From a virus, in the IMG/VR virus record IMGVR_UViG_3300017763_000005, positions 33,607 through 97,606 of that record: 64,000 bases of DNA. One strand, given 5' to 3'. Below the pieces are notes generated by a model. The model searched no databases, was not told where the DNA came from, and saw nothing but the letters and a program-made list of their open reading frames with translations. A program made the translations under genes and the position numbers. Numbering within the stretch: position 1 is the first letter of the stretch; the number at the start of each line of letters is the position of its first letter. Of the stretch, positions 4,142 through 48,729 are shown piece by piece.

Positions 4142-4469
4142 GTCCCTCCATCACTGCTTCACTTGCTTTGTTAAATCTTAATTCTATAAGTCCAGGCTTT
4201 TTAATTGCAAGTGCATCTAAATTATGCCTAGCAAATATAGCTAAATATTTTGCCTTTTCTTCTTCGATCTGAGCATTCTGTCTGCTCATATTCATTAAAG
4301 CTTTACCTTGTTTCTCATATTGTTCTTTCATGATCTCCATAGCTTGTTTCTGTTCTTCGACAGCAGCCTCGAGTTTAATTTGGTTTGCTTTAAATGTTTG
4401 GTTTTGCCCATATAACCACCAGGTACTTAAACCTAGTACTAATATGATAGCTATAAAAAATTGCTGCAT
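4101..4469 (-). CDS. Inner-membrane spanin subunit (Rz-like)
   Basis: 122 residues: an N-terminal membrane segment (FIAIILVLGLSTWWLYG) followed by a long Gln/Glu/Lys-rich coiled coil (about residues 25-80) and a short end beginning HNLDALAIKKPGLIE, a layout typical of phage i-spanins that bridge to an outer-membrane lipoprotein. The start ATG shares bases with the stop of the acyl carrier gene (TAATG), and the 3' end overlaps the lipoprotein gene. Predicted to act in the last step of host lysis. The lysin of this phage is encoded far away, near 25.5 kb. Confidence 0.7.
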   Translation of the reverse strand: MQQFFIAIILVLGLSTWWLYGQNQTFKANQIKLEAAVEEQKQAMEIMKEQYEKQGKALMNMSRQNAQIEEEKAKYLAIFARHNLDALAIKKPGLIELRFNKASEAVMEGLEDDTEKLSTLNQ

Positions 4470-4687
4470 TATGAATTCACCTCAATATATTCTTTAATAA
4501 GACCTATAGTTGAAAGAGTTTCTGCATCTTCATCTGCTATTTCTACATCATATTGTTCTTCAAGCTGTAAAATAATTTCAACTGTGTCTAATGAATCAGC
4601 TCCAAGATCATCTACTAATGATTTATCATCGCTACATTCTTCTATTGTTTTACCTAAATGGTCTGCTACTATTTTATTTACTGACAT
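4469..4687 (-). CDS. acpP: Acyl carrier protein
   Basis: 72 residues, the normal size of a discrete ACP. The 4'-phosphopantetheine attachment motif DLGADSLDTVEI is intact with Ser32 as the carrier serine. Helix II and III acidic residues (EIILQLEEQYDVEIADEDAE) are typical, and the protein is very acidic. It presumably uses the host phosphopantetheinyl transferase to carry acyl groups. It sits in a late-type leftward unit between a hypothetical gene and the spanin pair, with a TAATG junction downstream and a shared base with the gene upstream. Family assignment is firm; which pathway it serves in infection is unknown. Confidence 0.92.
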   Translation of the reverse strand: MSVNKIVADHLGKTIEECSDDKSLVDDLGADSLDTVEIILQLEEQYDVEIADEDAETLSTIGLIKEYIEVNS

Positions 4688-4938
4688 TATTCGTCCTCTA
4701 TCTTATATCTTAAACCTTGCATACCTTTGATATGCACAGTTCTTTTATCATCTGTTCTAAACTTTAGTTCTTTGAAGTTTGATTTTATTATTTTTCTCAC
4801 ATGCACATATTTTTGATCGTCACCATTACCCCATTGATTATCAAAGGAAACAGTAACAGTAAATCTTGGATTTAACTTATTTACTATCCACCAATAAACT
4901 TTCTTAACAATATTAATCAGTTTTTTTAAGTATTTCAC
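4687..4938 (-). CDS. Hypothetical protein, basic amphipathic N-terminus
   Basis: 83 residues from a GTG start at 4938. I prefer this to the in-frame TTG at 4956 because AGGAGA lies 7 bases upstream of the GTG. The N-terminus (KYLKKLINIVKKVYWWIV) is basic and amphipathic, followed by a beta-rich segment (RFTVTVSFDNQWGNGD, KYVHVRKI). It overlaps the gene upstream by 26 bases and ends at the ACP start codon. No recognised family. Confidence 0.55.
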   Translation of the reverse strand: MKYLKKLINIVKKVYWWIVNKLNPRFTVTVSFDNQWGNGDDQKYVHVRKIIKSNFKELKFRTDDKRTVHIKGMQGLRYKIEDE

Positions 4939-5152
4939 GTGCGTTTCTCCTAGCAAGGATACGTTCTACAAACTTCTTACCCTCTTTAGTTCTTCCATCA
5001 TAAATTCTTTTATGCATTTGATTTTTCTTTTTATGTTTATCGTGTTTATCTTTTGGCATAGCGTCTGCTGGCATAGATACACCACCATGACCTACAGCAT
5101 TTGCTGCTGCATCTTCCCACATATCTTGGTATTCTTTAAATGATCTTATCAT
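4913..5152 (-). CDS. Small basic protein with internal-protein-like N-terminus
   Basis: 79 residues. The start MIRSFKEYQDMWEDA resembles the short leaders on several neighbours (an M-x-x-F-K-x-[YF] pattern with an acidic residue a few positions on). The middle (VGHGGVSMPADAMPK) is followed by a Lys/His-rich stretch and a basic helix (KKFVERILARRNAREILKK). Overlaps its upstream neighbour by 4 bases (ATGA). Likely a minor virion or core protein by context. Confidence 0.55.
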   Translation of the reverse strand: MIRSFKEYQDMWEDAAANAVGHGGVSMPADAMPKDKHDKHKKKNQMHKRIYDGRTKEGKKFVERILARRNAREILKKTD

Positions 5153-5739
5153 CTGCTTATATCTCTATTTGTTATGTATATATTTTGTCTTGTTTTAGAA
5201 TGTAATACCCTGTATATATTTATATTAGAAATGCTTCCAACTGGTGTTAATAAGTCATTAACTATAACTTTTGAATTTCTATGCGCTATTATTTCACCAG
5301 TTTCTAAAGATGCTACATCTTCTACTAAAATATAATTACCTGGATAAAGTCTTGCTTCTGAATCTTGATACCAATAGTTTTCATTTATCTCATTACTAAG
5401 CGGTTCTTCTAAAGCTTTTTCTAATGTTTTTAATAATTGTTTTTCAGACATTCCAGTATGTTCTTTAATCAAGAATAGAGCAGCTCCATAACGAGCAACA
5501 ACTGATTTGCCGCCTGGAGCTTTTGCCATTATTCTTTTAAGATTAAATACAAGTCTATGAAAAACTGTATAGGCTGACTTTTCTTCTGGAGTTGTACGTT
5601 CAGGTCCTTTTTTAAGTACCTTACCTTCTTTATCAATTATACCAAGCTCAAACGCTTTTGTTTTCTCAAACGGAGTAACGAGCAATTTCAAAAAGCGAAA
5701 TGCGTAAAATAAATCTCCTGTTCTTGATATAATTCCCAT
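5149..5739 (-). CDS. Conserved T4-like phage protein, probable internal virion component
   Basis: 196 residues starting MGIISRTGDLFYAFRFLKLL, an amphipathic segment that may touch membrane or other proteins. The sequence (KTKAFELGIIDKEGKV, AYTVFHRLVFNLKRIM) resembles, from memory, a protein shared by T4-like marine phages and found with virion genes. A helical middle is followed by a beta-rich C-terminal third (PGNYILVEDVASLETGEII). Overlaps 4913-5152 by 4 bases and shares one base with the gene upstream. Biochemical function unknown. Confidence 0.65.
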   Translation of the reverse strand: MGIISRTGDLFYAFRFLKLLVTPFEKTKAFELGIIDKEGKVLKKGPERTTPEEKSAYTVFHRLVFNLKRIMAKAPGGKSVVARYGAALFLIKEHTGMSEKQLLKTLEKALEEPLSNEINENYWYQDSEARLYPGNYILVEDVASLETGEIIAHRNSKVIVNDLLTPVGSISNINIYRVLHSKTRQNIYITNRDISR

Positions 5740-6110
5740 TAAAGTTCTCTTAATACCTCTACTATGTTAGGGTCCATTACGACATCAACCTTCTCATCCT
5801 CAGGTAAGTAGTGAAGATATACTAAAAATGGTTTGATATATTGATAGTGATTTTGATCTATCTTATACCATATCATTCTATTACAAGCTTCTATACCAAA
5901 TACGTTATAAAGAACTATAATGTGATTAAGAATTAATCGTTCTTGTAATTCACCATGTTCTTCGTATCGAGTAAGCAACCTTTTGAGATATTTAAATCTA
6001 CTTAAGTCTTGCTTGAATTCTTCTACATCCGTACATTCCGGATTGTTATAATGTTGTGCCGCAAAAAGTTTAAAATTCTTACTCGTCAACTCATCAAATA
6101 CTTTCATCAT
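5739..6110 (-). CDS. Conserved hypothetical protein of T4-like marine phages
   Basis: 123 residues, almost entirely alpha-helical (FKYLKRLLTRYEEHGELQ, RLILNHIIVLYNVFG, CNRMIWYKI). I recall very similar proteins in T4-like cyanophages (a DUF7207-like family), always small and uncharacterised. No signal or catalytic motif. A GAAAGG ribosome site precedes the two adjacent ATGs; I use the outer one at 6110. The 29 bases upstream hold no recognisable promoter. Confidence 0.65.
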   Translation of the reverse strand: MMKVFDELTSKNFKLFAAQHYNNPECTDVEEFKQDLSRFKYLKRLLTRYEEHGELQERLILNHIIVLYNVFGIEACNRMIWYKIDQNHYQYIKPFLVYLHYLPEDEKVDVVMDPNIVEVLREL

Positions 6111-6139
6111 ATATTATATATACCTTTCGGTATAATTAA

Positions 6140-6802
6140 TTAGTCAGTTTCGTTATCAGCTTCGTAGTTTGCATCAACGTAATCAAAGAATTCTTTCTTT
6201 TTATCTCCTTCAAGTTCATCAGGTGATTTTACACCAAATTTCTTAAGAGCTTTATCAAAGAATGCTCGGTATTTTTTTTGTTTTTCAGACTGCTCATCGA
6301 CTTTTTCGTCTTCTTCGTCTTCTTTTTTACCTTCTTTGACGTCTTTCTTTTCTTCTTCTTCGTCGTCTTTGTAGTCTTCTACTTTGTATTTTTTACCAGA
6401 AACTACGAATTCATCATCACCGTTTTTACGAGCAGCATTTAAAGCTTTAGTGAAGGCATTACCTTCTTTTTTCTCATCTTCTTCATCATCATGCTTAGCT
6501 TCTTTAGTTACTGTACCATCTGGATTTTCACCAGATTTTTTTATAACATGCTTGTCTTTAAAATCCTTTTCGCCTTTAGCTCTTGGCTCTTCAACCTCAT
6601 TAACTTTTGGCTTTTCATGAGTGTAACCTTGCTTAGCAAGTTTTTCATGATCTTCAGGAGTTTTAGCAACTACTTTTTCGCCAGTTTTAGGGTGAAACAT
6701 ATCGTGAGGATATTTAGCTTCTTCTTTTTTTGGAGCTTTACCTTCAAGTACATCTTGTACTGTGTTAGCAATGCTCATTGTTATGTCATCATTGAATTTC
6801 AT
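6140..6802 (-). CDS. Highly charged prohead core/internal virion protein candidate
   Basis: 220 residues composed largely of Glu, Asp and Lys (DDEEDEKKEGN, DDEEEEKKDVKEGKKED), a composition like T4 prohead core proteins. The N-terminus MKFNDDITMSIANTVQDVLEGK contains V-L-E-G, a plausible prohead protease site. The C-terminus (FFDKALKKFGVKSPDELEG, then FFDYVDANYEADNE) is a compact helical unit that I recall recurring in virion proteins of T4-like marine phages. Probably a scaffold or internal capsid protein; assignment rests on composition and context. Confidence 0.6.
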   Translation of the reverse strand: MKFNDDITMSIANTVQDVLEGKAPKKEEAKYPHDMFHPKTGEKVVAKTPEDHEKLAKQGYTHEKPKVNEVEEPRAKGEKDFKDKHVIKKSGENPDGTVTKEAKHDDEEDEKKEGNAFTKALNAARKNGDDEFVVSGKKYKVEDYKDDEEEEKKDVKEGKKEDEEDEKVDEQSEKQKKYRAFFDKALKKFGVKSPDELEGDKKKEFFDYVDANYEADNETD

Positions 6803-6813
6803 TTTTTTCTCCG

Positions 6814-7125
6814 TTAATTACTTAAATGAACTATGTATTCCCAAGTAACTGCTGATATTAAACCAACTAATATTACCCAGAATATTCTATTAATAATATT
6901 GACTGTGCTTGCATTGCTATTAACTAATTGCTCAACACGGTCTATTCTATTTATAAGCGATTGCACTTGAGTTGCTTGTTGCTTATTAAATTCTGCGAGA
7001 GTTGAAATCTTCTCTTCAGCTCTTGCAAGCGCTATTATCGCCTGAGCCATTTGATCTAATTTCTCTTCTATTCTATCCAATCTTTGAGATTGAACTGTGT
7101 AAACTTGCATTTCTTGTTTATCCAT
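6814..7125 (-). CDS. Coiled-coil protein with C-terminal membrane anchor
   Basis: 103 residues from the ATG at 7125; an in-frame GTG at 7161 would add 12 residues but lacks a good ribosome site. Residues ~5-70 form a coiled coil (RLDRIEEKLDQMAQAIIAL, LINRIDRVEQLV). The C-terminus is one hydrophobic helix (IINRIFWVILVGLISAVTW), a tail-anchor layout. It overlaps the cupin-like gene by 8 bases. Conserved small genes of this shape occur in T4-like marine phages; whether it is a virion, lysis or signalling component cannot be told from sequence. Confidence 0.6.
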   Translation of the reverse strand: MDKQEMQVYTVQSQRLDRIEEKLDQMAQAIIALARAEEKISTLAEFNKQQATQVQSLINRIDRVEQLVNSNASTVNIINRIFWVILVGLISAVTWEYIVHLSN

Positions 7126-7393
7126 CTTTAGAGATAATCCTACATTTGAGGGTGTTAACACCTTTTAATACTCTATGATATTCTCCCTTTGGTACGTCGA
7201 ATATCATGCCTGGTGATAATAAAAACGGTAAACAGTTATCAAACTGTATACACCAACCATCGCCTTCGAGTATTTCAATTTCACGATCTTCATTGTCACG
7301 ATGCCAAACATATTCCTCATCATCTCGATCGATAAAGAATTCTCTCTCTATACCTCCTAAGGTATATTCTTCTGCAAATGGAAGGTTTACCAA
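7118..7393 (-). CDS. Small cupin-like protein
   Basis: 91 residues from a TTG start at 7393, chosen because GGAGG lies 8 bases upstream and no ATG or GTG fits. The pattern VWHRDNEDREIEILEGDGW... LSPGMIFDVPKGEYHRVLKG looks like the two beta-hairpin motifs of a minimal cupin barrel; histidines in VWH and EYHRV could be metal ligands. Overlaps the end of its upstream neighbour by 7 bases. Function unknown. Confidence 0.55.
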   Translation of the reverse strand: MVNLPFAEEYTLGGIEREFFIDRDDEEYVWHRDNEDREIEILEGDGWCIQFDNCLPFLLSPGMIFDVPKGEYHRVLKGVNTLKCRIISKDG

Positions 7394-7758
7394 AAGTAAT
7401 TCCCTCCTCCCTTTAAACCTAATTCTTTAGCATACTTAGGTAATCTACATGCCCAATAACCAGCTGACAATTTATCAGTTTTAGTATCACAGTTATGTCT
7501 TGAAGCAAAGTTTCGAGCAGCATCACGATCATTTATCTTTGATGTTAAACCACCTTTTGCATCTCCAAAGTTTATCTTCTTTACATTACCAGTTTGTGGA
7601 TTTTTTACATATACCACATACTTGCTTGGACCAGCTGATCTTTTTGGTTTATTAAGCTCCGGAGCTTCTATCAATGGTCTTTCTAATGGAACAGTTGTTC
7701 CTTCATATAAACCAAAGTTTTTATTTATATGTTCTTTGAAATTATCCACCGAACTCAT
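7387..7758 (-). CDS. DUF5872-like protein, candidate capsid-targeted internal protein
   Basis: 123 residues. The C-terminal ~75 residues (KYVVYVKNPQTGNVKKINFGD, then ARNFASRHNCDTKTD and AGYWACRLPKYA) match my memory of the DUF5872 module found in marine phage virion-type proteins: a beta-strand pair followed by a Cys-containing basic segment. The N-terminus MSSVDNFKEHINKNFGLYEG has an L-Y-E that could be a prohead-protease site. ATG start; 17-base overlap with the gene upstream. Confidence 0.6.
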   Translation of the reverse strand: MSSVDNFKEHINKNFGLYEGTTVPLERPLIEAPELNKPKRSAGPSKYVVYVKNPQTGNVKKINFGDAKGGLTSKINDRDAARNFASRHNCDTKTDKLSAGYWACRLPKYAKELGLKGGGNYFW

Positions 7759-8116
7759 GCCCCGCTACTCTTTTCATTTGTTTTTTATATTCAGCAAAGT
7801 CAGGTTTAGATTTATATAGCTTTATAGAAATCTCGTTTCTTTCTTTACCTTTAATACGCCAGTTATAACCTTGTTCTTTATGTTCAGGATCTGTGGTTTT
7901 TACAACTCTTCTTTTGTAACCATCTTCCCAAGTTTCGCCTTTGTATTTACCTTCGCCTTCTTCTACGTTTTCTCCTTTAGCTCTGTCCATAGCTGCTTGA
8001 GTAGGAGCTCCTTTTTCTCCTTTTTTACGCATTGGCTTTCCACTCTTTCTTTTATTATGGATATTGGCCCAAAGACCAGGACCCTTTTCAGAAAGAAATG
8101 ATTTAAATGATATCAT
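7742..8116 (-). CDS. Basic protein with KxGAPT motif, candidate internal virion protein
   Basis: 124 residues, strongly basic. The leader MISFKSFLSEKG resembles T4 internal-protein leaders (hydrophobic/Lys alternation ending L-S-E). Then GLWANIHNKRKSGKPMRKKG followed by EKGAPTQAAMDRA, a motif I recall from small proteins of many marine phages, and a C-terminal beta-rich region. Four-base ATGA overlap with the gene upstream. Probably DNA-associated inside the head, by charge and context. Confidence 0.6.
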   Translation of the reverse strand: MISFKSFLSEKGPGLWANIHNKRKSGKPMRKKGEKGAPTQAAMDRAKGENVEEGEGKYKGETWEDGYKRRVVKTTDPEHKEQGYNWRIKGKERNEISIKLYKSKPDFAEYKKQMKRVAGHEFGG

Positions 8117-8406
8117 CTTTTTAAATCCATTCTAAACGATTTGCCCTTTTGTTGTTTATCTTTAGTGACTTTAAACTTAGCAATTCTAGCTATTATATTA
8201 GTTAATTCTGTTTTGCCTTTTTTTAAATCTTTTTCTAAGACCTTTTTAACTTCCTTCCATATAGAATCTAGTATATCACTATCACTAGCTACATATGGTG
8301 CTTCATCTAATTCATCTGCTTTAATACCGTCGCCATCTGTATCAATTTCTTTTTCGGCGTCAGTATAAGACTTAAATTTTTGTCTAGCTTGTTTAAAGGT
8401 TTTCAT
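8113..8406 (-). CDS. Small charged protein, candidate internal virion protein
   Basis: 97 residues starting MKTFKQARQKFKSYTDAEK, similar in style to the neighbouring leaders. An acidic EF-hand-like stretch (EIDTDGDGIKADELDE, D-x-D-x-D-G) could bind calcium. The remainder is basic helix (IWKEVKKVLEKDLKKGKTEL). Shares one base with the upstream gene's stop region. No family recognised. Confidence 0.55.
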   Translation of the reverse strand: MKTFKQARQKFKSYTDAEKEIDTDGDGIKADELDEAPYVASDSDILDSIWKEVKKVLEKDLKKGKTELTNIIARIAKFKVTKDKQQKGKSFRMDLKR

Positions 8407-9182
8407 TAGTATTTTGATCCTGCGCTTAAGTCGACTTTCATTCTTCTACCTGGTCGTATGTTTCCAGATTTTCTTTTGATTGCTTCATCCATATCTACAT
8501 CGAAGTTGATATGTGTAATATCATAACCTTGACCTTTTTTCTTAGCAGTTAACCATCTACCATTAAGTGAATCCATTGCAACTTTGTTTAAATCAGTCTT
8601 AGGAAACTTCTTACTCTTTGTAGACCCAGGGATAAAATATAAAACACCAAGATCATCGTATAACTCATCATCACCAAATGGCATAAGCTTTAAATATTTG
8701 TCTACTTCCTTTTCAGTAGTAGCAAAGTATGGCTTTGATACAAGGTCCATTAATTTTTGAAGTTTAGTTTTAGTATCTGGTATATCCCATGTACCTTCTT
8801 TAACTTTTTGCACTGATTCTGGTAAAGACATCATAAACTTACCGATATTTTTATTAGGACCTGATACACTAAGTTCAGTACCAGTTTTAGTTTTTTTACT
8901 TACAACTTTTACACCAGCCTTTTGAGCAAGCTTAACTGCAGTCTTATGACTATCGTCGTCCATATCTACTAATTTAACGGTCTCTTCGTTTACTGATTCG
9001 TTTGCTTGTCTTAAAGCATCTTTAACCATAGGATCATTTGCTAATCCTTTTTTCATTGCTTCTATTTTTTTATGAGCTCCAGTCATATTACCACCCATAT
9101 CAATTGCAATCTTTACAGCAGCTGCAACAAGAGATGAAGGGAATTTACTTCTGTATTTTTCTCTTAGTTCTTTAAATTTCAT
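8406..9182 (-). CDS. Unknown protein with internal-protein-like leader
   Basis: 258 residues. The leader MKFKELREKYRSKF has L-R-E. A helical segment (SLVAAAVKIAIDMGGNMTGAHKKIEAMKKGL, shown in parts: SLVAAAVKIAID and AHKKIEAMKKGL) is followed by a region with KLVDMDDDSHKTAVKLAQK, like the small DNA- or RNA-binding modules of phage virion proteins, then a compact C-terminal domain (FGDDELYDDLGVLYFIPG). Ends in a basic tail (RPGRRMKVDLSAGSKY). Four bases separate it from the nucleotidyltransferase-like gene upstream. No confident function. Confidence 0.55.
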   Translation of the reverse strand: MKFKELREKYRSKFPSSLVAAAVKIAIDMGGNMTGAHKKIEAMKKGLANDPMVKDALRQANESVNEETVKLVDMDDDSHKTAVKLAQKAGVKVVSKKTKTGTELSVSGPNKNIGKFMMSLPESVQKVKEGTWDIPDTKTKLQKLMDLVSKPYFATTEKEVDKYLKLMPFGDDELYDDLGVLYFIPGSTKSKKFPKTDLNKVAMDSLNGRWLTAKKKGQGYDITHINFDVDMDEAIKRKSGNIRPGRRMKVDLSAGSKY

Positions 9183-9185
9183 TTT

Positions 9186-10532
9186 TTATCCTCTTACTTT
9201 AGCGGCTAGATCTTTATCAGCTTTGCCCCATGTTCCTTTTGATTTTGTTACGAATGAATTGACTCTTGCCAATCCCCATTGAACAGCTGTTGTTCCAGGT
9301 CTATGACCTGTTTTCCATGCTGCTACTCCTCTATTGAATACTTGTCTTAATATACCTAAAGGCATACCAGATTTATCAGCTTTTTTCTTAAGTGCTGCAT
9401 CTGATTTACCTTCATGTACATTAAAGTCTTCAAATGTTAATTCACCAAACATTTGATGATATTTTTTTGTATGTGTAGATGGTTTTGTTTTTGCTGTTGC
9501 ATCACCTGGAGCTGGTTTTGTAGATTTCTTTTTAAAATGAGCATCTCTTTTTTGCTTTGTAGATTTAGAAAGACCTGCATGATATTTGGCTGGTTGTGAA
9601 CCTTTTTTGTGACCGATATCAGGATCTTCTCTATTCTCATCTTTCTTTTTCTTCTTTTCGCCAGGTGTTTCATTTTTAAGATAATTTGTATATGTTTTAG
9701 TACCTATTTCATTATATTCTAATAATTCTATAGCATCTAACCAGTATCTTTTCTTACCTAATATACCTTCTACTATTACATAATTAGTTCCACAAACTGA
9801 AATAGTACCTACTTCATTTGTTTCTTTAATTACAATTTCGTCTCCAACTTGGAATGAGTTACCTGCAACATATTCCTCTCTTGACTCAGATACAGTTGGT
9901 AATTCAACATGTTGTCTAAAAGTACTTTCTAATTTTAATCCCATACCTTTACGTACAGCATTAAAAAGATCTGTTGGATGAAACCTAGCTGGAACTCCTT
10001 TCGCAAATCCAGCTAGATCATTTTGTTGAGCGGCCATACGCATTTTTGAAGCAGACATACCAGTTGCACCTTCGGCATCTGGATCTCTTTCTCCTGCGCT
10101 TACTACATTTATTGCACCTTCGAAATTATAAAAACCGTGTTTAGCTTTTTCACCATTATATTTGTTTAATAATATATCAAACTCTCTTACTCTATCGCTA
10201 CCAGCGACAAGTGTTATTTTGGTAAAGCCTTGATCGTAAAGTTTTACTGCAATATCCAGTACTGTACGAACACCTTTATCGGCCATTATATTTCGTGCAT
10301 GTTTAGGAAACATTTTACGAAGGAATTTAATTTTATCTTTAAATTGAAGAGGATTCTTTTTAGCATCTACTGATTGTGATGCATAGATTCTATATGAACC
10401 ACCGCGTGATTGTTTTTTCAGTGCTTCAAATAATTTTTCATGACCAATCGTCGGAGGATTAAATCTCCCAAATACGAATGATACTTCTTTTGTGTTTTCA
10501 GTTAAATAATCACTGAATGATTTTATCGACAT
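9186..10532 (-). CDS. HIGH-superfamily nucleotidyltransferase (NMN adenylyltransferase-like) with DUF5824-like C-terminus
   Basis: 448 residues in two modules. After the leader MSIKSFSDYLTENTKE, residues ~17-190 form a cytidylyl/adenylyltransferase fold: FVFGRFNPPTIGHEKLFEAL holds the nucleotide-binding T-x-G-H variant of HxGH, and GMSASKMRMAA corresponds to the ISSTxxR-type motif. A basic linker (EKKKKKDENREDPDIG) leads to a C-terminal DUF5824-like module (GMPLGILRQVFNRGVAAW, TGHRPGTTAVQWGLARVNSF). Related enzymes make NAD or activate sugars or lipid heads. The L-T-E leader and neighbours suggest it is packaged in the head, which is inference. Confidence 0.7.
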   Translation of the reverse strand: MSIKSFSDYLTENTKEVSFVFGRFNPPTIGHEKLFEALKKQSRGGSYRIYASQSVDAKKNPLQFKDKIKFLRKMFPKHARNIMADKGVRTVLDIAVKLYDQGFTKITLVAGSDRVREFDILLNKYNGEKAKHGFYNFEGAINVVSAGERDPDAEGATGMSASKMRMAAQQNDLAGFAKGVPARFHPTDLFNAVRKGMGLKLESTFRQHVELPTVSESREEYVAGNSFQVGDEIVIKETNEVGTISVCGTNYVIVEGILGKKRYWLDAIELLEYNEIGTKTYTNYLKNETPGEKKKKKDENREDPDIGHKKGSQPAKYHAGLSKSTKQKRDAHFKKKSTKPAPGDATAKTKPSTHTKKYHQMFGELTFEDFNVHEGKSDAALKKKADKSGMPLGILRQVFNRGVAAWKTGHRPGTTAVQWGLARVNSFVTKSKGTWGKADKDLAAKVRG

Positions 10533-10551
10533 TTATATCCTCGGTTCCCAT

Positions 10552-11793
10552 TTAGCCTGGATTGTCCCAGCCTTTAATAATATCTTTGCTAAAGTTGTTG
10601 GTAGAAAATTCCATTCTATCAACTAGTTTAACTGCTCCACCTTCCATACGATCTATAGCAACAAAACCTTCTGGGTTGGTCACTTTAAATCCGGACGTTG
10701 TTTTAACAAACGTTCCAATTTTATTAAGTTTGTTTAGTTTATTTATAATAATTAATTTGCTGTCTACTAATAAATTTTGTAAATCAAACACATTTTGTAA
10801 GTTTTTTATATTTTTTTTATCAAAAAACTTTAATAATGCATCTCTTTGTTTTGCTTTATTATCTTTACCCTTTGTAGACGATAATTTATCGATTTGTTTT
10901 GCATATCTATCTTGAACAAACATTATTAAACCAGTAGCATGTTTTTTAGTATTAGTAATTCTTTGACCTTCTCTTACTTTTTTATTGTTATATACATTAA
11001 TAACAAGATTTAATTCTTTATTTGATTCTATTTCTTTTAATGTAGAAGCTGATATCTTTTTAAATATCTTACCAGCATCTGATAATTTCTTTGATACTTC
11101 TAAGCTATCTTGTTTAGTGAGTGTTGCAGTACCACTTAGGTCTTTTAAAGTAGCATCTTGCATCCATACATTTTTATTTGGTTTTAATTTAGAAACAATA
11201 TCTTTACCAAACTCTGCTTTCATAGTTTCAAATGTTGCTCCACTATATGATGTATGCCATACTATACCTACTTTAGCTGCTGCAATCTCTTTTGCTAAGG
11301 GCGTACCTGTAGGTACAGCATAAAGAATAGTATTAGGATGGAAAGTAATATGTTGGACTCCATCAATCTTCTCCTTTTTTAGATCACTTGAGTCAAACAT
11401 AAAGTCACCTTGTATTACATCTTTAATGCCAAGACTTTTTAGATTATCAAATGCAATCTTTAATTTTTTATTTAAATCACCTGATGTATCAGCATCTATA
11501 TCTGCATGATTCTTATATACTTTAGGATCAGCATTAAAGATACCTTTTTTTGCTACAAAGAATTGTCCATCTCGTGGATCTTCTCCAGCGAATAAGGCGG
11601 GGGCTCCGTCCCACTTGACAGTAACGTCCACAGGTGCTTTTGCGTTACCGCTCAACATATCCCTCAGTGATCTGAGCGCTAGGATTGCCTGGCGAGCCCC
11701 CTTAACTCCACCGTCAATGACAAGATCTTCAATATGTGTCATATGAGTATTCTTGCCTGCGGCCTCTGTTAAGTAATTTGTTAAACTTATCAT
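10552..11793 (-). CDS. Nucleotidyltransferase/ligase-fold-like protein, candidate internal virion protein
   Basis: 413 residues. The leader MISLTNYLTEAAGKN carries L-T-E, a T4 prohead-protease-type site. DVTVKWDGAPALFAG resembles motif I (K-x-D-G) of the covalent nucleotidyltransferase superfamily (DNA and RNA ligases, capping enzymes), QGDFMF is placed like motif III, and IVWHTSYSG may be motif IV; the expected late motif V (K-x-K) is not obvious. Four-base overlap with the upstream gene. I recall it as a conserved hypothetical (DUF6267-like) of T4-like marine phages. Ligase activity is a hypothesis. Confidence 0.55.
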   Translation of the reverse strand: MISLTNYLTEAAGKNTHMTHIEDLVIDGGVKGARQAILALRSLRDMLSGNAKAPVDVTVKWDGAPALFAGEDPRDGQFFVAKKGIFNADPKVYKNHADIDADTSGDLNKKLKIAFDNLKSLGIKDVIQGDFMFDSSDLKKEKIDGVQHITFHPNTILYAVPTGTPLAKEIAAAKVGIVWHTSYSGATFETMKAEFGKDIVSKLKPNKNVWMQDATLKDLSGTATLTKQDSLEVSKKLSDAGKIFKKISASTLKEIESNKELNLVINVYNNKKVREGQRITNTKKHATGLIMFVQDRYAKQIDKLSSTKGKDNKAKQRDALLKFFDKKNIKNLQNVFDLQNLLVDSKLIIINKLNKLNKIGTFVKTTSGFKVTNPEGFVAIDRMEGGAVKLVDRMEFSTNNFSKDIIKGWDNPG

Positions 11794-13172
11794 GTATAAA
11801 CCTTTACGTACGAGCTGGAATCTTCTGCTTTTGATCCAGCATAATTTACAATTTTAGTTATCCATCTGTTTGCTCTTTTACCTGTATTAATATCCAAGTA
11901 ATAACAAACATATAAACAACCAAGTTTAGATGAAATCCAATTAGTATCTTTTGCTAATAGTAGTTCTTGGAATTGTTCAAATGTTTCATTCTTATAAAAG
12001 TTGTTATACATCTTCCAAAATATTGCAATTCCTTTTTTATCTTTCTTTGTAGCTATTTTCTTCGCTATATTATATATTCCAGCTTTATGATTTGGTAATT
12101 TCTTATTAAATACAACTTTTGTTGCATCTTGTAAAACTCCCCAACTTGCTCCACCACCTCTTGCAGTTTTTAATATAATTTCTGCTTTTACGTTACCGCC
12201 AGGTGAGTTATCTTTTAAAGCCATTTTACCATCATCAAATACTAATGTTGCACCTTTGTTAGACCAGAAGTCTCCTCGTACAGCTCCTTGTAATAAGATC
12301 TGCATTAACTTATGATCGTCAGTATCAGGTGGTAGTTTAACATTGTATTCAGTTAGTTTAGCTTTTTTCTTAACAAGTTTAAGAGATATACCAACTAAAG
12401 TTCGATTTGCAAAGTGTTCTAATATAGATTCATTTAATGATTTAACGCTGTCTGATTTAAGATTTTTTATGTTAAAGCTTTTATCAACAGCCCATATATC
12501 GCCAGGATTCCATTTGTCATCTTTTAACGCTTTCATATCTGTATTTTTATATGCTACATTTTTAAGTGCATATATGCTATTCATGACTTTGTCATTTCTG
12601 TGAAAGGTGTGACCTTTATGGATATATTTGTTTTTAATTAATTCATATGCAGAGAGATGAGATGATGTAAACCAATCTCCTTCTACGCCTAATACTTCAT
12701 CTAATGATGCATCAACAAATACTTTTTTGTATGCTGCTTTAAGTATATCATGCGTAAAGAAATCTTCATCATGCATTCCATGATCTAACATCGCTTGGCA
12801 CATAACACATTGATGTGATTCTGTAATCTTTGTGTTAAGTGAACCTCCACCAGATCCTCCGCCACCACCAAATACTGATGACTTAGATAAATCTGATGTG
12901 GTATAACTGTTTCCATCTATTCCCATAAATGGTATAGCAGCTTTCTTATCTGAATTACTCTTTTTAAAGTCTTTTAAAAGTTTAAGTAGCTCAGGATTTT
13001 TTTCTATTACTACTGATCCGCCTTTAGCTAATTCAATTGGTTTATTTTGTCCAATCAGTCTTATAAGAATATCAACTCTCGCTTCTCCAGTAATACTGTT
13101 AGGTTTATCTAACTGAGCTGGAGTCATTTTTACTGCTTCTTTAAGTGTTTTAAAGTCTTTAAAATTTTTCAT
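11790..13172 (-). CDS. Large conserved hypothetical protein, candidate internal virion protein
   Basis: 460 residues; leader MKNFKDFKTLKEAVKM with L-K-E. A glycine linker (FGGGGGSGGGS, about residues 100-110) separates a short N-terminal region from a globular part that starts with SHQCVMCQAMLDHGMHDEDF, where Cys and His residues might bind metal. WNPGDIWAVD and ANRTLVGISLKLVKKK are conserved-looking segments that I associate with uncharacterised T4-like phage proteins. First gene after a combined consensus promoter and TATAAATA late element, so it heads the long unit down to 3.3 kb. Confidence 0.6.
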   Translation of the reverse strand: MKNFKDFKTLKEAVKMTPAQLDKPNSITGEARVDILIRLIGQNKPIELAKGGSVVIEKNPELLKLLKDFKKSNSDKKAAIPFMGIDGNSYTTSDLSKSSVFGGGGGSGGGSLNTKITESHQCVMCQAMLDHGMHDEDFFTHDILKAAYKKVFVDASLDEVLGVEGDWFTSSHLSAYELIKNKYIHKGHTFHRNDKVMNSIYALKNVAYKNTDMKALKDDKWNPGDIWAVDKSFNIKNLKSDSVKSLNESILEHFANRTLVGISLKLVKKKAKLTEYNVKLPPDTDDHKLMQILLQGAVRGDFWSNKGATLVFDDGKMALKDNSPGGNVKAEIILKTARGGGASWGVLQDATKVVFNKKLPNHKAGIYNIAKKIATKKDKKGIAIFWKMYNNFYKNETFEQFQELLLAKDTNWISSKLGCLYVCYYLDINTGKRANRWITKIVNYAGSKAEDSSSYVKVYT

Positions 13173-13211: not shown

Positions 13212-13219
13212 TATTTATA
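13212..13219 (-). promoter_or_regulatory. T4-type late promoter element TATAAATA
   Basis: TATAAATA on the minus strand, 39 bases upstream of the ATG at 13172 and just upstream of the sigma70-type promoter. Fits late expression of the candidate internal-protein genes through gp55. Intergenic, so not constrained by coding. Confidence 0.6.
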
Positions 13220-20890: not shown

Positions 20891-21257
20891 GTTCCTCGTT
20901 ATCTCTTTTACAATGTACTATTGAGACGTTTGGACATCTCTTTCTAATTTCTTTAATTTGTATAGGATCATCTTCAAAATGCATTTGAACTTCTATACCA
21001 AGATCTTTTAACATATTAATCATTTGACCTTTAAAAATACCAGAAGCTTTTCTTCCATAAATTGAATTATCATAACGGTCAAGTGGATTCATATATACGG
21101 TATTATATATGCCTCTTGAATGTAGCATTTTTTCTGTAGCTTCTCTATCATGATACGGCCGCCCCGTAAGAATTATGTCATTCTCACAGGGTCTTACGCC
21201 GGTGACGTCTTCGCCAAAATAGATCACACCATCAATGTCAAAACTATTAACTTTCAT
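20877..21257 (-). CDS. HAD-superfamily phosphatase-like protein
   Basis: 126 residues. The start MKVNSFDIDGVIYFG is HAD motif I (D-x-D-G-V); IILTGRPYHDREATEKML supplies motif II (T-G-R) and HFEDDPIQIKEI the acidic motif IV. Such small capless HADs dephosphorylate small metabolites or nucleic-acid ends. Overlaps the inositol-phosphate synthase gene by 11 bases; an inositol-1-phosphate or nucleotide substrate is a natural guess from position, no more. Confidence 0.75.
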   Translation of the reverse strand: MKVNSFDIDGVIYFGEDVTGVRPCENDIILTGRPYHDREATEKMLHSRGIYNTVYMNPLDRYDNSIYGRKASGIFKGQMINMLKDLGIEVQMHFEDDPIQIKEIRKRCPNVSIVHCKRDNEERVKY

Positions 21258-22539
21258 AATCAGTTTGACCAGCTTGGAAGGTGAAAGGCAAGTCTTTAGC
21301 CTTTGGTCTATTTTCCTTGAGCTGAGGTTTAGTCATGTCTGTAATGACTCTTCTCGCTAAGGCGTCACATTCAAATTTAGCATCCTCAGTTTTTAACTGT
21401 ACTGGAGGAGTCTTTTGAGTCCAAGCTGATGGTCCTCTTAGATATCCAACAATACCCATTTCTGATGCTACCTTACAAAATCTAATTGCTGAAACAACAA
21501 CTCCACCAGAGTTTGGCGAATCTTGAACTGAAAGTCTTGCTGACATTTCGTATCTTGCTCCTGCAAATCCATAAGCAACCATATCAAAGTTTGCTATCTT
21601 ATTATCAGATGAAATAAAATCTCCACCTGGTTTTTGTTGAACAGTAAGAGATGGACCAGCAAATAAAGTCATACCTGCTGTAGACTCATCTCTTACAATA
21701 TTCTGACCTTTAAGAACATTTTCTTTTGAGATATGTTTGTTTTTTAATCTATATTGTTTAGCCATATTTAAGAAGTCAGTATTAGCTGTTCTTCCTGTTC
21801 TAATATGTTCTTGACCTTGTGTAGATCCAGCTGCCATATTCATTTGAATATGTTGAGTAATCATAAGTCCTGAATCAAGCATTGCACCTTGTAAAACTTC
21901 TGACATTCTTGAAGCTCCCCAAGCTGATCTCATATCTGATCCAATGAAACTTAAACCAGCATCTATAAATCTTTGTTCAACTTCTAATGCATCATCAGTT
22001 GAAATTAATGTAGGAATACAATTAACAAAATGTACTCCAGCTGCAACTGCGACATCAATCCAATATCTTGATGCTTCTTCTGATCCTACTGGTAAGTAAT
22101 TAATAAGTACGTCTACATTATGATACTGTAATAACTCAACTGTTCTATCGAACGATTCAGCTGGAACAGCTCCATTTACAAATGTGACTTCATCTGGATA
22201 GTCATGCATATGTGGTGCTATCCCGTCCATTTCTGGAGCTGAATAGACCATTGCGTCTTTATGTACGCATGAACTATTTGATGTAGTAGTAATTTTATCG
22301 ACATGATCCATAGCACAATTAGGTTGAGCTCGTAAAGCTTTTGCTAATTTCTTATTTACTTTTCTCTTATCGATATCAAATCCAACGACAAATTCTATAT
22401 CGTGTACTGAATATCCTCCGATATCTTCATACATAAGACCTATTTTATCTTCTGGATTTTCGTTATAATATTGAATTCCCTCTACGAGAGACTTCGCACA
22501 TGATCCGACACCTATGATGCCTGCTTTTATTTTTGACAT
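21247..22539 (-). CDS. ino1: Myo-inositol-1-phosphate synthase homologue
   Basis: 430 residues. NAD-binding GIIGVGSCAKSLVEGIQYY at the N-terminus, then FVVGFDIDKRKVNKKLAKAL, VDVLINYLPVGSEEASRYW, GVHFVNCIPTLIS and GLSFIGSDMRSAWGASRM form the order of motifs seen in inositol-phosphate synthases (actinobacterial and archaeal type). The catalytic Lys region is probably RLKNKHISKENVLKG. It would convert glucose-6-phosphate to inositol-1-phosphate. ATG with GGAGAAAA upstream. Set within a nucleotide and DNA-modification cluster, not near sugar or lipid genes, which makes the role interesting. Confidence 0.85.
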   Translation of the reverse strand: MSKIKAGIIGVGSCAKSLVEGIQYYNENPEDKIGLMYEDIGGYSVHDIEFVVGFDIDKRKVNKKLAKALRAQPNCAMDHVDKITTTSNSSCVHKDAMVYSAPEMDGIAPHMHDYPDEVTFVNGAVPAESFDRTVELLQYHNVDVLINYLPVGSEEASRYWIDVAVAAGVHFVNCIPTLISTDDALEVEQRFIDAGLSFIGSDMRSAWGASRMSEVLQGAMLDSGLMITQHIQMNMAAGSTQGQEHIRTGRTANTDFLNMAKQYRLKNKHISKENVLKGQNIVRDESTAGMTLFAGPSLTVQQKPGGDFISSDNKIANFDMVAYGFAGARYEMSARLSVQDSPNSGGVVVSAIRFCKVASEMGIVGYLRGPSAWTQKTPPVQLKTEDAKFECDALARRVITDMTKPQLKENRPKAKDLPFTFQAGQTDYES

Positions 22540-22609: not shown

Positions 22610-22913
22610 ATATACTATTAGTTATAACACTTATCAAGCCACTTCCTAAGATGAGACATGCTGCTGTGTTTAAAATTATCAACGCTCTATCTTTCCAGAT
22701 AAGAGCTACTACTAACCAACCGAAACATCCTATTAAGGAAAAGGTTTGATCGTAGATCGCAAGATCAGGACTTGATCTTACTGCCATTGCCAATAAAAGA
22801 ATAGCAGATGCTACCCATTTTATATACCAATCGATTGTATACTTAGGAGTTGCACTCTTAAATATACGTTTTGAATTCTCTAATTCTTTTGCGTCAAACT
22901 TTGATTGACTCAT
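22608..22913 (-). CDS. Small polytopic membrane protein
   Basis: 101 residues with three predicted membrane helices (VASAILLLAMAV, FSLIGCFGWLVVALIW, LIILNTAACLILGSGL) after a charged cytoplasmic-type N-terminus (SKFDAKELENSKRIFK). It overlaps the dCMP deaminase by 20 bases. Similar small proteins occur in T4-like marine phages; function unknown. Confidence 0.65.
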   Translation of the reverse strand: MSQSKFDAKELENSKRIFKSATPKYTIDWYIKWVASAILLLAMAVRSSPDLAIYDQTFSLIGCFGWLVVALIWKDRALIILNTAACLILGSGLISVITNSI

Positions 22914-23355
22914 ATTCTATACCTGCTTCTTCAAATAATTGTTCTGTTAATGTATCGCTTTTATTCCAACGATCTGGAGTATCTTGAGAGAAAGCCATTA
23001 CTCTTTTGACACCGACTTGGATAAGACCTTTTGCGCATTCGCTACAGGTTGGTAATCCGTGTACATATACTGTCGAGCCTTTTAAAGATACTCCATTTGC
23101 TGCTGCATTGTAAATACAGTTCATTTCTGCATGTACTACATATTTGTATTTTTCTTCTCTGTCATTATATCTTTCTTCAGTATCTTCAATACCTCGTGGA
23201 AACCCATTATAGCCTTGAGCTATGATTTCTCCATTTTCTCCAATAGCAACTGCACCAATTTGTCGGCTTGGATCTTTTGACCACGTGCCAAAGTGCCATG
23301 CTAGAGCGAGATATCTCGTATCCCAATTACTTGATAAGGTCAAAGTGTCTTTCAT
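22894..23355 (-). CDS. cd: dCMP deaminase
   Basis: Deaminates dCMP to dUMP, feeding thymidylate synthesis. 153 residues from the ATG at 23355, chosen because upstream in-frame codons run far into the hydroxymethylase gene. Zinc motifs intact: VVHAEMNCIYNAA (H75, E77) and PTCSECAKGLIQ (C104, C107). RQIGAVAIGENG and GYNGFPRGIED are typical of phage dCMP deaminases. It overlaps dCMP hydroxymethylase by 29 bases, so two enzymes competing for dCMP are co-expressed. Confidence 0.93.
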   Translation of the reverse strand: MKDTLTLSSNWDTRYLALAWHFGTWSKDPSRQIGAVAIGENGEIIAQGYNGFPRGIEDTEERYNDREEKYKYVVHAEMNCIYNAAANGVSLKGSTVYVHGLPTCSECAKGLIQVGVKRVMAFSQDTPDRWNKSDTLTEQLFEEAGIEYESIKV

Positions 23356-45132: not shown

Positions 45133-46458
45133 TTACACCATGATGTCGTCAACTCTGAAGATTCTAAAGTACTGGTTAGCACGGTTAGTACCTGTGCCAT
45201 CAGCAGCTACGAATGGATTTGCAACCATACCGTATCTTGTTTTGAATCCCATTCTTGGTTGGAAATCGTTCTCACCCACTGCTTTAACCATTGTTAAAGG
45301 TACGTAAGGACAATAGAACATACCAGCATCATACGGGTTAGTTCCTCTATATCCAACACAAACGAAGTCAGTAGTTGCATATGGATCGATGTACACCTTG
45401 ATTCTTCCATTTAGAAGACCAGCAAAAGTATTACCAGTATCATCAACGTTTAAGTTTGCACTTAAAGCAGGTGTGTAATCTAGCATGCCAGCGGCAGCTA
45501 AAGCTGAAGCAACGTCTGAAGAACAGATAACAAAGTTACCTTTTCCACGTCTTGTTTCTTTAGCGATTATGTTACATTCTCTCTCAATCTGCATGATAAG
45601 ACCTTTAAATCTTTCTACCATCCATCTTCCATCTGAGTCTGTGTTAACATCAAAAATACCACTTACAGCAGTAGAAGTTTGAAGAGCACCAATTTTAGCT
45701 TTTGTTAAAATTGTTCTTACAACTTCTCTGTTGATTTCAGCCAAGATTTCAGCTGAAAGGATATTAGCCAATTCGCCTTCAGCATCCAATCCGTGGATTG
45801 CTTTAAGGTCTTGTGCTAATTCCATTGTGTACTCAGCTTTTAGAGCTCTTGACTTAGCTGTTACAGTTGATTTCTCAATTGAAAAAGCCATTTCGCCGAA
45901 AGAACCGTCGCCGGACTCGCCGACTCCCAATCTTTCTGCAGCTGATGTAGCAAGACCTGAACCGTGTGTTGACACTGTGTCAGCTTCGTCTGCTATTGTA
46001 CCGTCTGTATCAGCATCAGTAACACCTACTAGACCTGTTGGGTCAGCTTGATGAGTACCTGTTCCTGAGAAGTCAGTATCAGCTTCGTCAAATAGAGCTT
46101 CTGTTCCGCCCTGAGTTGAGTATTTTGATTTCATTGCAAAGATAAGTCCTGTAGGACCACTCATTGGCTGAACGCCAGCGATATCATAAGCAATTAAGTT
46201 AGGCATAGCTCTACGAACTAAAGAGATTAATACTGGATCAAAAGTTCCAATACTTCCACCACCAATGTTATTTGGCGCTGCAGCTTCAGAAATATAATTT
46301 CCTTGTGCTTGAGCTCTTTCTTCTTGTAGGGCAACCTCTTGGTTTTCTAACAATCTAGCTGTTACAGCTTTCTTGTATCTGTCGGAAATTTCAGGAGCTG
46401 ACTCGTGATCGAGAACAGGACCCCATTTTTCCATTAAGTTTTTATCTGCTTGAAACAT
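45133..46458 (-). CDS. 23: Major capsid protein gp23
   Basis: 441 residues. MFQADKNLMEKWGPVLDH opens the propeptide; NYISEAAAPNNIGG contains I-S-E at residue 58, the expected gp21 cleavage site, giving a mature protein of about 383 residues. RRAMPNLIAYDIAGVQPMSG, PTGLIFAMKSKY and YGMVANPF are typical of T4 gp23. Forms the hexameric head lattice. A strong terminator follows. Confidence 0.97.
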   Translation of the reverse strand: MFQADKNLMEKWGPVLDHESAPEISDRYKKAVTARLLENQEVALQEERAQAQGNYISEAAAPNNIGGGSIGTFDPVLISLVRRAMPNLIAYDIAGVQPMSGPTGLIFAMKSKYSTQGGTEALFDEADTDFSGTGTHQADPTGLVGVTDADTDGTIADEADTVSTHGSGLATSAAERLGVGESGDGSFGEMAFSIEKSTVTAKSRALKAEYTMELAQDLKAIHGLDAEGELANILSAEILAEINREVVRTILTKAKIGALQTSTAVSGIFDVNTDSDGRWMVERFKGLIMQIERECNIIAKETRRGKGNFVICSSDVASALAAAGMLDYTPALSANLNVDDTGNTFAGLLNGRIKVYIDPYATTDFVCVGYRGTNPYDAGMFYCPYVPLTMVKAVGENDFQPRMGFKTRYGMVANPFVAADGTGTNRANQYFRIFRVDDIMV

Positions 46459-46476: not shown

Positions 46477-47649
46477 TTACTTTGTGAAATTAGTTATAGC
46501 TTGAGTGTATTTAGACATAGACTCTGATGATACTTCTTCTGAAATATTATCTTCGCCTAAAAGACTATCAACTTCGTCCACTGATTCGTCAGTCTCATTT
46601 TTGAAGTATGACTCTTTAACAGTTTTTACTTTCATTTCGAAAGTTTCTTTGTTATCGAATTCGATATCTTCTACTAATGATGCTAATTTCTCAGCTTCAG
46701 TTTCTGCAAGCCCTGATGATTGTTCTCTTACTACTTCTTGCTTTTCAAAGTTTTGAACAGCTTCATGTAATTTGATATTATCATCTGTGGTTTTATTTAA
46801 AGTCTCTTCTAGCTCAGTGACTTGTTCGTTGAGTTCATCAACTAAGTCTTCTTTAACTTCAGGTACTTCGATGTAGTGTTCTTTGAACACTGACTGAAGT
46901 GAAGTCATAAACTCTTCAGCAATTTCAGTCCTAAGACCTTGTTGAACTGCAAGTTCATTATCTTTCATCCATCCTTCAACTACGTAGTTAAGGTATGAAT
47001 CTACCTTCTCTACTAATGAAGATTGTACTTCTGATACTTCTTCTTCTAAATTTTGCGCATATTCTGCTTCTAGCCTATCAATTTCTTGAGTTAACTTACT
47101 TGTAAGTACTGCCTCAAAAATGACAGATGCTTTATCACGGAATCCTTCGCTGAGTGTAGCTTCTTCTTTGATGATTGTATCCAAATCTTCATCAAAATCA
47201 ATTGCTTCAACTTTAGCTTTCGCTTTAGGATCTGCAACCTTCTTAACACCGCCATCTTTAGCAGCATCAGCTGATTTCACTGAATCTTCTTCACCATCAA
47301 TAGTTACTAACTTAGCAAACATTTTTTGCGCGTCTTCTTTTTTAGCCTTTTTAAGCATTTCAACTGCTGCTTGAATAACACCAGCTTTAGTTTTTGGAGT
47401 CTCGACTTTAGGAGCAGCTTCTTTCATCTCCTCTTCTTCGTCTTCGTCTTCATCTTCTTCAGCGTCTTCGTGTTTCTTCATGGCATTAACTTTTTTCTTG
47501 CCATAAGTCTCATCAAGAGTTTCTTCAGTTTCTTCTTCTTCCTCGTCTAAAATTGTTTCATTTTCAACGAGCTCTTCAGATTCTTGAAGTTGCTCTTCTT
47601 CAACAGTTTCTACTACTTCTTCAGCATTGTTTAAAACGTCGTCTGACAT
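46477..47649 (-). CDS. 22: Prohead scaffold protein gp22
   Basis: 390 residues, highly acidic with long helical, coiled-coil segments (DELNEQVTELEETLNKTTDD). Gly/Pro-poor and Glu-rich as expected of a scaffold core that is later degraded by gp21. Longer than T4 gp22 (about 269), mostly through an acidic N-terminal extension (EEEEETEETLDE). Placed between gp21 and gp23. Confidence 0.9.
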   Translation of the reverse strand: MSDDVLNNAEEVVETVEEEQLQESEELVENETILDEEEEETEETLDETYGKKKVNAMKKHEDAEEDEDEDEEEEMKEAAPKVETPKTKAGVIQAAVEMLKKAKKEDAQKMFAKLVTIDGEEDSVKSADAAKDGGVKKVADPKAKAKVEAIDFDEDLDTIIKEEATLSEGFRDKASVIFEAVLTSKLTQEIDRLEAEYAQNLEEEVSEVQSSLVEKVDSYLNYVVEGWMKDNELAVQQGLRTEIAEEFMTSLQSVFKEHYIEVPEVKEDLVDELNEQVTELEETLNKTTDDNIKLHEAVQNFEKQEVVREQSSGLAETEAEKLASLVEDIEFDNKETFEMKVKTVKESYFKNETDESVDEVDSLLGEDNISEEVSSESMSKYTQAITNFTK

Positions 47650-47658
47650 AGTATTCTC

Positions 47659-48318
47659 CTATGATTTTAGATTTAATTTAGAGAGGAAATTTTTAAAAGC
47701 TCTTATTTCAACATCTGGCGATGTTGGATTCTTTGCTGTCTTGATTTCAGTCTCAATTACTTCAATATCTTGTTGACGAATTAGCCCATTATCCCATACC
47801 CATTCAACACCTTCCATAACTCCATTTACAAATGCACTTGGAGCTGAAGGGTCTTGAACAATATCTACAGTTGATAACATAAAGTCATCTCCCACATATT
47901 GAGCGCCATTCTTCTGTACAAGACTTCCCATACCACGACTTGATACACCAAGCTTAACTCCACCTTCGAGCAGACCTTCGACGATCTGACCCATAGGAGT
48001 CTTTAAGATTGATGCCTTTCCTACAACATCATTTCCCTGCCAATGCAGATCTGTGATTTTGTGCGAAACTTTATCCAGGTTTACTGTTGGTCCTTCTGGA
48101 TGATTTAACTCTCCAACAGCTCTTCCTGTTTTAACTTGTTCGGTTACGTATTTTTCTACAGCCTTTTCAAGACTTTCTTTTGTGTAGATACGGCCGTTTC
48201 TGTTCTTTTTTTCCGATTGCATAAATACGCCTTCGATGTAATAGTTCTTAGTTCCATCTTTTTTGGCTTCGCAAATCGTTTCTAAATTGTTTTCTACGTA
48301 TTCTGTTATTAATTTCAT
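47659..48318 (-). CDS. 21: Prohead protease gp21
   Basis: 219 residues. GRAVGELNHPEGPTVNLD provides the catalytic His73 and GVKLGVSSRGMGS the Ser (about 126-127) of the T4-type prohead protease. It cleaves gp23, gp22 and internal proteins after L/I-x-E. The N-terminus MKLITEYVENNLETICEAKK itself holds such a site (I-C-E), consistent with self-processing. Confidence 0.95.
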   Translation of the reverse strand: MKLITEYVENNLETICEAKKDGTKNYYIEGVFMQSEKKNRNGRIYTKESLEKAVEKYVTEQVKTGRAVGELNHPEGPTVNLDKVSHKITDLHWQGNDVVGKASILKTPMGQIVEGLLEGGVKLGVSSRGMGSLVQKNGAQYVGDDFMLSTVDIVQDPSAPSAFVNGVMEGVEWVWDNGLIRQQDIEVIETEIKTAKNPTSPDVEIRAFKNFLSKLNLKS

Positions 48319-48549: not shown

Positions 48550-48729
48550 TTATCCTTGTGTTTCGTTTTCTTTCTCAGCGACTTTACGCTGAACCATTCC
48601 TGATGCTATTTCTATCTTCTTAGCATCAAGAGCTGCGGCCATTTTGTCAGCCATAAGAGTATTAAACTCTTTATTAGCCTTTACGTTATCGCCATCATTT
48701 AAGTTTTTAATCAATTCATTAATTGCCAT
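48550..48729 (-). CDS. 67: Prohead core protein gp67-like
   Basis: 59 residues: MAINELIKNLNDGDNVKANK, then FNTLMADKMAAALDAKKIEI, with a charged end (VAEKENETQG). Matches T4 gp67 in size, position (directly after gp20) and helical LIKxxNxGD/ADKMAAALD composition, but lacks the long acidic tail of T4 gp67. A TATAAATA lies 20 bases upstream of the ATG. Confidence 0.75.
   Translation of the reverse strand: MAINELIKNLNDGDNVKANKEFNTLMADKMAAALDAKKIEIASGMVQRKVAEKENETQG

Follow-up and report, generated by a model that had tools for sequence, protein, structure and literature searches.

A probable T4-type capsid-targeting leader on candidate head-packaged proteins of a marine T4-like phage

The internal protein IPIII of phage T4 carries a 10-residue capsid-targeting sequence, in which mutagenesis assigned residues 4 and 7 to targeting and residues 8 and 10 to processing, and the prohead protease gp21 cleaves after L/I-x-E (PMC9026906, a review of T4 head assembly). 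In the T4 record IPII and IPIII start with MKTYQEFIAE and IPI starts with MKTFKEFTSTTTPVSTITEA. IPI-III act as inhibitors of GmrSD-type restriction enzymes (PMC12373910). That T4-like phages may use the targeting sequence to package varied proteins has been proposed before, in the T4 review (PMC9026906). Here we describe leaders of this type in a window of 64,000 nucleotides, bases 33607-97606 of the 97.6-kb virus record IMGVR_UViG_3300017763_000005. The window holds a run of genes on the minus strand, from 13172 down to 4913 in window coordinates, which a sequence-only reading had proposed to be an island of capsid-injected internal proteins with leaders ending in L-x-E. From the leader and its distribution, the late promoter elements, the protease and scaffold genes and the tagged virion proteins of a relative, all of them observed, we conclude that the genes with a strong leader very probably encode T4-type capsid-targeted head cargo, which would be trimmed by gp21 and probably injected.

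Virion protein lists of cyanophages hold puzzling enzymes (cytidylyltransferase, kinase, S-adenosylmethionine (SAM) hydrolase, Cas9-like nuclease) and do not explain how these enter the particle or whether they are contamination. Homologous cytidylyltransferases with a DUF6267 neighbour occur in S-CREM2 (PMC10665884), S-SZBM1 (PMC9146016), S-SM1 (PMC3037559) and S-SCSM1 (PMC9602691), and our locus shares with these phages its position between the gp41/mazG and nrdA genes and the leader on the detected enzymes. The available text of the four papers reports presence in the virion and proposes no packaging signal. The polyvalent and MuF-fused effectors packaged in phage heads, from work of the Aravind group described in PMC9503650, share the idea of early-delivered head-packaged enzymes, some of them multi-domain; there, packaging was inferred from head-protein fusion or context, whereas here a short separate tag stands before stand-alone enzymes. 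No MuF, portal or other head domain was found in Pfam and PHROG scans of ten island proteins. The ejection proteins of phiKZ and SPN3US (PMC5694885, PMC10052503) are packaged, and a gp21-like protease trims their propeptides behind a short motif whose last residue is E. They come from giant phages, a lineage that uses a cleavage motif of its own, and are set apart here by description, not by sequence. In the openly licensed literature we found no report of the tag outside T-even phages. The mechanism is known from the T4 internal proteins; new are its occurrence on enzyme cargo of marine relatives, the connection with puzzling virion enzymes and the internal copies of the leader.

L/I-x-E alone is not a usable criterion. 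Within the first 14 residues [LI]xE was not enriched (25 of 146 genes in the genome, against 20.8 expected from internal stretches), and it was dropped as its frequency was not above chance. The composite motif [FYLI]xx[FY][LI]xE, with a hydrophobic or aromatic residue at position 4, an aromatic one at 7, L or I at 8 and E at 10, is enriched (4 of 146 genes, 0.34 expected), and its positions are those mapped by IPIII mutagenesis (PMC9026906). Three of the four genes with the composite motif lie in the island, all on the minus strand. The gene at 7742..8116 encodes a 124-aa protein with the strict motif in its leader MISFKSFLSE (8087-8116), and 10552..11793 encodes a 413-aa DUF6267 protein, likewise with the strict motif (MISLTNYLTE, 11764-11793). 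The 448-aa cytidylyltransferase/NMNAT-like protein with a C-terminal DUF5824 (9186..10532) has the leader MSIKSFSDYLTE at 10497-10532, with the motif shifted by 2. The fourth gene, for a HAD-type phosphatase, is located outside the window (G000:C1:26002-26610) and starts with MKKFNEFLAE. These four genes carry the leader as defined for internal proteins. A spacer variant of it, MKNFKDFKTLKE at 13137-13172, begins the 460-aa phrog_1462 protein encoded by the first gene of the unit (11790..13172, minus strand).

Since the pattern came from the list in the sequence-only reading, independent tests were sought in relatives, in T4 and in virion proteomes. A position matrix was trained on the leaders of relatives, leaving out the cytidylyltransferase family and the T4 and S-CREM2 sequences. 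Among 52 T4 proteins, all encoded in a single stretch of 30 kb, the matrix ranks IPIII, IPII and IPI first to third, with a chance of 1 in 22,100. In our genome it picks 9186-10532, which has the top score of all genes (20.1), 7742-8116 (19.1) and 10552-11793 (15.5), and also the HAD phosphatase; 11790-13172 and 4913-5152 score more weakly.

The genome also holds the late promoters and head-maturation genes of a T4-type system. A T4-type late promoter element, TATAAATA, matches at 13212..13219 on the minus strand, 40 nucleotides upstream of the unit's first gene, where the sequence-only reading had placed it. Of the 19 copies in the window, 18 are on the minus strand and one is on the plus strand; shuffled sequences had a mean of 11.2 copies, and none of 100 shuffles reached the total of 19. 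Sequence matches predict a late promoter in front of the 13172 unit, 4913-5152 and the HAD gene, the last of which has its own TATAAATA. The following genes are all on the minus strand. The enzyme proposed for processing, a prohead protease of gp21 type, is encoded at 47659..48318 (phrog_207, head maturation protease, 8.8e-81), and a gp22-type scaffold with 17 [LI]xE sites, the proposed leader-binding core, at 46477..47649 (phrog_237, 1.9e-67). The major capsid protein of gp23 type (45133..46458) has ISE at residues 56-58, with ISE58/A59 as candidate processing site, and the protease has ICE at residues 15-17, both as previously read. A prohead core protein (phrog_1064, 6.2e-07) is encoded at 48550..48729. 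Between the protease and prohead core genes, a 74-aa gene at 48319-48543 starts with MLSFVELREK, comparable to the MKFKELREK of 8406-9182.

The leader is widespread among relatives at the protein level. In a phage collection no DNA relatives were found at megablast level; two scans with DUF6267 proteins gathered 160 viral loci with 2062 called proteins. In this survey V or M was also accepted at the L/I position. The motif occurs N-terminally in 162 of the 2062 proteins, compared to 3, 1 and 10 at residues 31-44, residues 51-64 and the last 14 residues. We also give family counts, because proteins within one family are related and not independent. Fourteen families of at least 3 members have the motif, and in 8 families 30% or more of the members do, whereas the control positions yield 0, 0 and 1 families at that level. 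One leader is hence found on otherwise unrelated proteins (14 families, 160 loci), which include PAP2 phosphatases and Zeta-toxin-like kinases. Its key residues are spelled by varied codons (E by GAA/GAG, F by TTT/TTC, L by TTA/CTA/CTT/CTC/TTG), so selection acts on the protein. In the DUF6267 leader L8 and E10 are kept in at least 90% of 46 sequences, and in the 11790 family E12 is kept in at least 90% of 32 aligned sequences. In this phrog_1462 family L/I-x-E is fixed beside the mature start, and the spacer to the F-x-x-F part varies in length. The DUF6267 and cytidylyltransferase domains begin directly after the leader. Among members of the 7742-8116 family the leader is kept or varied, and diverged orthologues in S-CRM01, S-H34, S-B68 and S-N03 still carry leaders.

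Virion proteomes of relatives provide a further test. In Synechococcus phage S-CREM2, 52 of 219 proteins were detected in virions by mass spectrometry (PMC10665884). The four proteins with the highest matrix scores of the 219, the cytidylyltransferase gp154 (MKNFSSFLTE), the SAM hydrolase gp6 (MKDFDSFLEE), the kinase gp14 (MKRFDAFLTE) and gp13 (MKDLHSFLTE), are all virion-detected (p = 0.003). Rank 5, the 55-aa open reading frame gp175, is not among the virion proteins. Of the strict motif matches 4 of 5 are virion-detected (Fisher p = 0.012), and TATAAATA is located just upstream of the leader units gp6, gp15-gp12 and gp154, but not of gp175, the sole undetected strict match. Mann-Whitney tests of matrix scores between virion and all other proteins were not significant (p 0.17 for S-CREM2, 0.44 for S-SZBM1), as expected where shell and tail parts make up the bulk of the virion proteins; the signal is in the top ranks only. 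The Cas9-like virion protein gp12 (L084:7704-10313) has RFASFMAE at residues 18-25, some 17 residues into the chain as annotated. Its orthologues (L178-L181) in S-H34, S-B68, S-N03 and S-CRM01 retain the site as FSSFLKE, FSSFIAE, FSNFLKE and LDSFIKE. In S-SZBM1 the cytidylyltransferase _140 (MRFRQFIIEA) was detected in the virion, and cytidylyltransferase/NMNAT-like virion proteins are listed for S-SM1, S-SCSM1 and S-CBWM1 as well. Unlike in our phage, DUF6267 proteins in the S-SZBM1, S-CREM2 and S-CRM01 genomes lack a leader, and the leaderless homologues S-SZBM1_141 and S-CREM2 gp87 were undetected in virions, whereas the tagged cytidylyltransferases of both phages were detected. S-SZBM1_191 and _192 (L095:22311-22628 and 22628-23125, minus strand) start with MKSFKSFLSE and MKTFKQYITE and adjoin virion protein _190.

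A leader-like stretch also occurs inside one chain. In the 9186-10532 protein LTFEDFNVHE (residues 365-374; 9411..9440, minus strand) lies at a module boundary and matches weakly (score 1.8). Relatives of this family have a second leader-like stretch, e.g. MKSFKQSLEEADAKAALKKKA or MKSFKQSLEE, just before the last DUF5824-region module, and the family holds 40 of the 50 strong internal matrix matches across all relatives. In phage C48C1 the gene is split at the place of the internal leader, and the separate module gene has MITFKKYLEE. The annotated start of its cytidyltransferase C48C1_89 (L089:11688) is internal; reading on upstream in frame gives the leader VIKNFSQYLLEE. The internal copy would be accounted for if two tagged cargo genes had fused. 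Cleavage there is a guess.

By analogy with T4, the first 10 to 13 residues would act as a capsid-targeting sequence and bind the core of the prohead scaffold through residues 4 and 7. Once the prohead is assembled, gp21 would cut behind L/I-x-E (residues 8 and 10) and free the folded protein within the head, and the freed cargo would enter the next host together with the DNA. The same tag would thereby serve many unrelated proteins, i.e. the cytidylyltransferase/NMNAT-like protein, the DUF6267 and phrog_1462 proteins, the small protein and the HAD phosphatase. The likely purpose would be the presence of these proteins in the host before phage gene expression, for host take-over or counter-defence as with T4 IPI-III. 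Of the proposed steps this purpose is the least secure; either use would be compatible with SAM hydrolase and NMNAT-like enzymes. The resemblance to T4 IPI-III and to further T-even Ip proteins (Repoila 1994, cited in PMC12373910; PMC9026906) comprises leader length, residues 4/7/8/10, the L/I-x-E end, an IPI-like spacer variant, unrelated mature parts, a late-type promoter element and gp21 and gp22 homologues in the genome. The differences are another phage lineage, whose cultured relatives belong to Kyanoviridae apart from a few that are unclassified, enzymes among the cargo (in relatives as long as 870 aa), an operon with several tagged genes and the leader-like copy inside one chain.

Several points weigh against T4-type head cargo. 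The motif was first shaped by the list of the sequence-only reading, so its enrichment within the genome is not independent. In the S-SZBM1 proteome, _191 and _192 carry a leader and are nevertheless not among the 30 virion proteins detected, perhaps because the proteome is shallow. Virion proteins without leader occur in the homologous region (S-SZBM1_136 and _139, S-CREM2 gp156 and gp160); the leader is therefore not the sole route into the virion. The tagged S-CREM2 proteins gp14 and gp12 (755 to 869 aa) exceed the T4 internal proteins in size, and the S-CREM2 authors concede possible carry-over of abundant proteins. Presence in a relative's virions is no proof that the phage of our window packages its own copy.

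An explanation that we regard as very unlikely is that virion presence in S-CREM2 reflects carry-over of abundant late proteins and that the likeness to the T4 leader is coincidental. The conceded carry-over and the undetected _191 and _192 would agree with it, but different groups have detected the cytidylyltransferase in virions of several phages, the four top scores of S-CREM2 all belong to virion proteins, and the matrix recovered the three T4 internal proteins although none had been in its training set. Hardly credible is the idea that the common N-terminus is a start region of late genes for the control of translation or mRNA rather than a tag on the protein. Leader genes often follow late elements and start regions do house translation signals; yet the key residues persist through differing synonymous codons, a start of this kind is missing from most late genes preceded by TATAAATA, L/I-x-E stays beside the mature protein though the spacer length varies, and the motif is also found within a chain, at a module boundary.

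A third alternative, which we consider unlikely, accepts core targeting by the leader and cleavage by gp21 but gives the proteins a role in head assembly or DNA condensation instead of host delivery. T4 IPIII additionally influences head assembly (PMC9026906), and 6140-6802 and some other island genes encode highly charged proteins without enzyme match. Delivery of head cargo is favoured by the enzyme-like domains behind leaders in the genome and its relatives (cytidylyltransferase, HAD/PAP2 phosphatases, Zeta-toxin-like kinase, SAM lyase) and by the variation of cargo between relatives, which fits accessory effectors better than assembly factors.

The sequence-only reading had expected effectors of unknown function. 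This does not apply to the 9186-10532 product, which matches phrog_3041 (1.5e-88) and phrog_395 (3.1e-67) and has a GRFNPP and GH motif right behind the leader; the GRFNPPTxGH motif residues are invariant in 10 sequences. Pfam PF01467 stays under its cut-off (18.8 vs 21 bits), and sequence searches of the PDB gave no meaningful relatives. On these motifs we assign it as a cytidylyltransferase/NMNAT-like protein of the HIGH superfamily. The HAD-type gene likewise has enzyme matches (Pfam DUF2608, 1.5e-05; PHROG polynucleotide kinase, 1.3e-09). The phrog_1462 protein falls in a family annotated as of unknown function. Its confident model (11790-13172; predicted local distance difference test, pLDDT, 87.6) has a disordered leader and no fold match in the PDB at E <= 0.001, and possibly represents a new fold. 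The 10552-11793 product matches DUF6267 (9.4e-101) from residue 15, and in its model residues 1-19 are disordered ahead of the folded body. KWDGAP, EGxVA and AVKLV are invariant in 46 sequences and resemble the ligase motifs I, IV and V (KxDG, EGxV, K), from which one may guess at membership in the covalent nucleotidyltransferase (ligase) superfamily. No ligase family was among the 25 Pfam families shown for all 46 DUF6267 members (E up to 10), a profile search of the PDB gave no meaningful relatives, and the model had no PDB fold match at E <= 0.001.

The proposed island does not hold as a whole. All seven N-termini quoted in the sequence-only reading are real and on the minus strand, and the claim of a capsid-targeting leader with an L/I-x-E site stands for the strong-leader genes, on the IPIII positions, the recovered T4 proteins, the relative's virion proteins and the late promoters. 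In four genes, all minus-strand, the leader is only weak or degenerate. The 258-aa protein of 8406..9182 begins with MKFKELRE (9159-9182) and has a negative matrix score; MK(x)FKxLRE starts recur in its relatives. The 97-aa protein of 8113..8406, MKTFKQARQKFKSY, has relatives with leader-like beginnings (MKNFKEHAQLDEA, MKTFKQHINE). The 123-aa protein of 7387..7758 has MSSVDNFKEHINKNFGLYE at 7702-7758 (score 2.8) and relatives beginning with MKTFKEHLEGFGLYEG and MIDFKDYIVEAFGIYEG. The 79-aa protein of 4913..5152 has MIRSFKEYQDMWE at 5114-5152 (score 7.4), TATAAATA at most 80 nucleotides upstream and relatives beginning with MKSFKDMWEDAA. Five island genes lack the leader (5149-5739, 5739-6110, 6140-6802, 6814-7125 and 7118-7393).

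A shared T4-type tag would explain how virion enzymes are packaged and would separate cargo from carry-over. If this is true, candidate injected proteins of abundant marine phages could be read from sequence alone, and since the T4 internal proteins are restriction inhibitors, the tagged list would be a shortlist of candidate counter-defence proteins. More speculatively, and in our view possible if doubtful, the leader may be a general portable head-loading tag beyond T-even phages whose internal copies let gp21 release several effectors, and a kit of nucleotide/RNA enzymes (NMNAT-like, ligase-like DUF6267, polynucleotide-phosphatase-like HAD) may restore NAD+ or RNA against host defence on entry. 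Elsewhere in the record, a Pfam search for a Clp-protease across the whole sequence gave nothing. Judged by eye, the product of window positions 4469-4687 resembles acyl carrier protein (DDLGADSLDTVEII), and the 430-aa product of 21247-22539 is like inositol-phosphate synthase.

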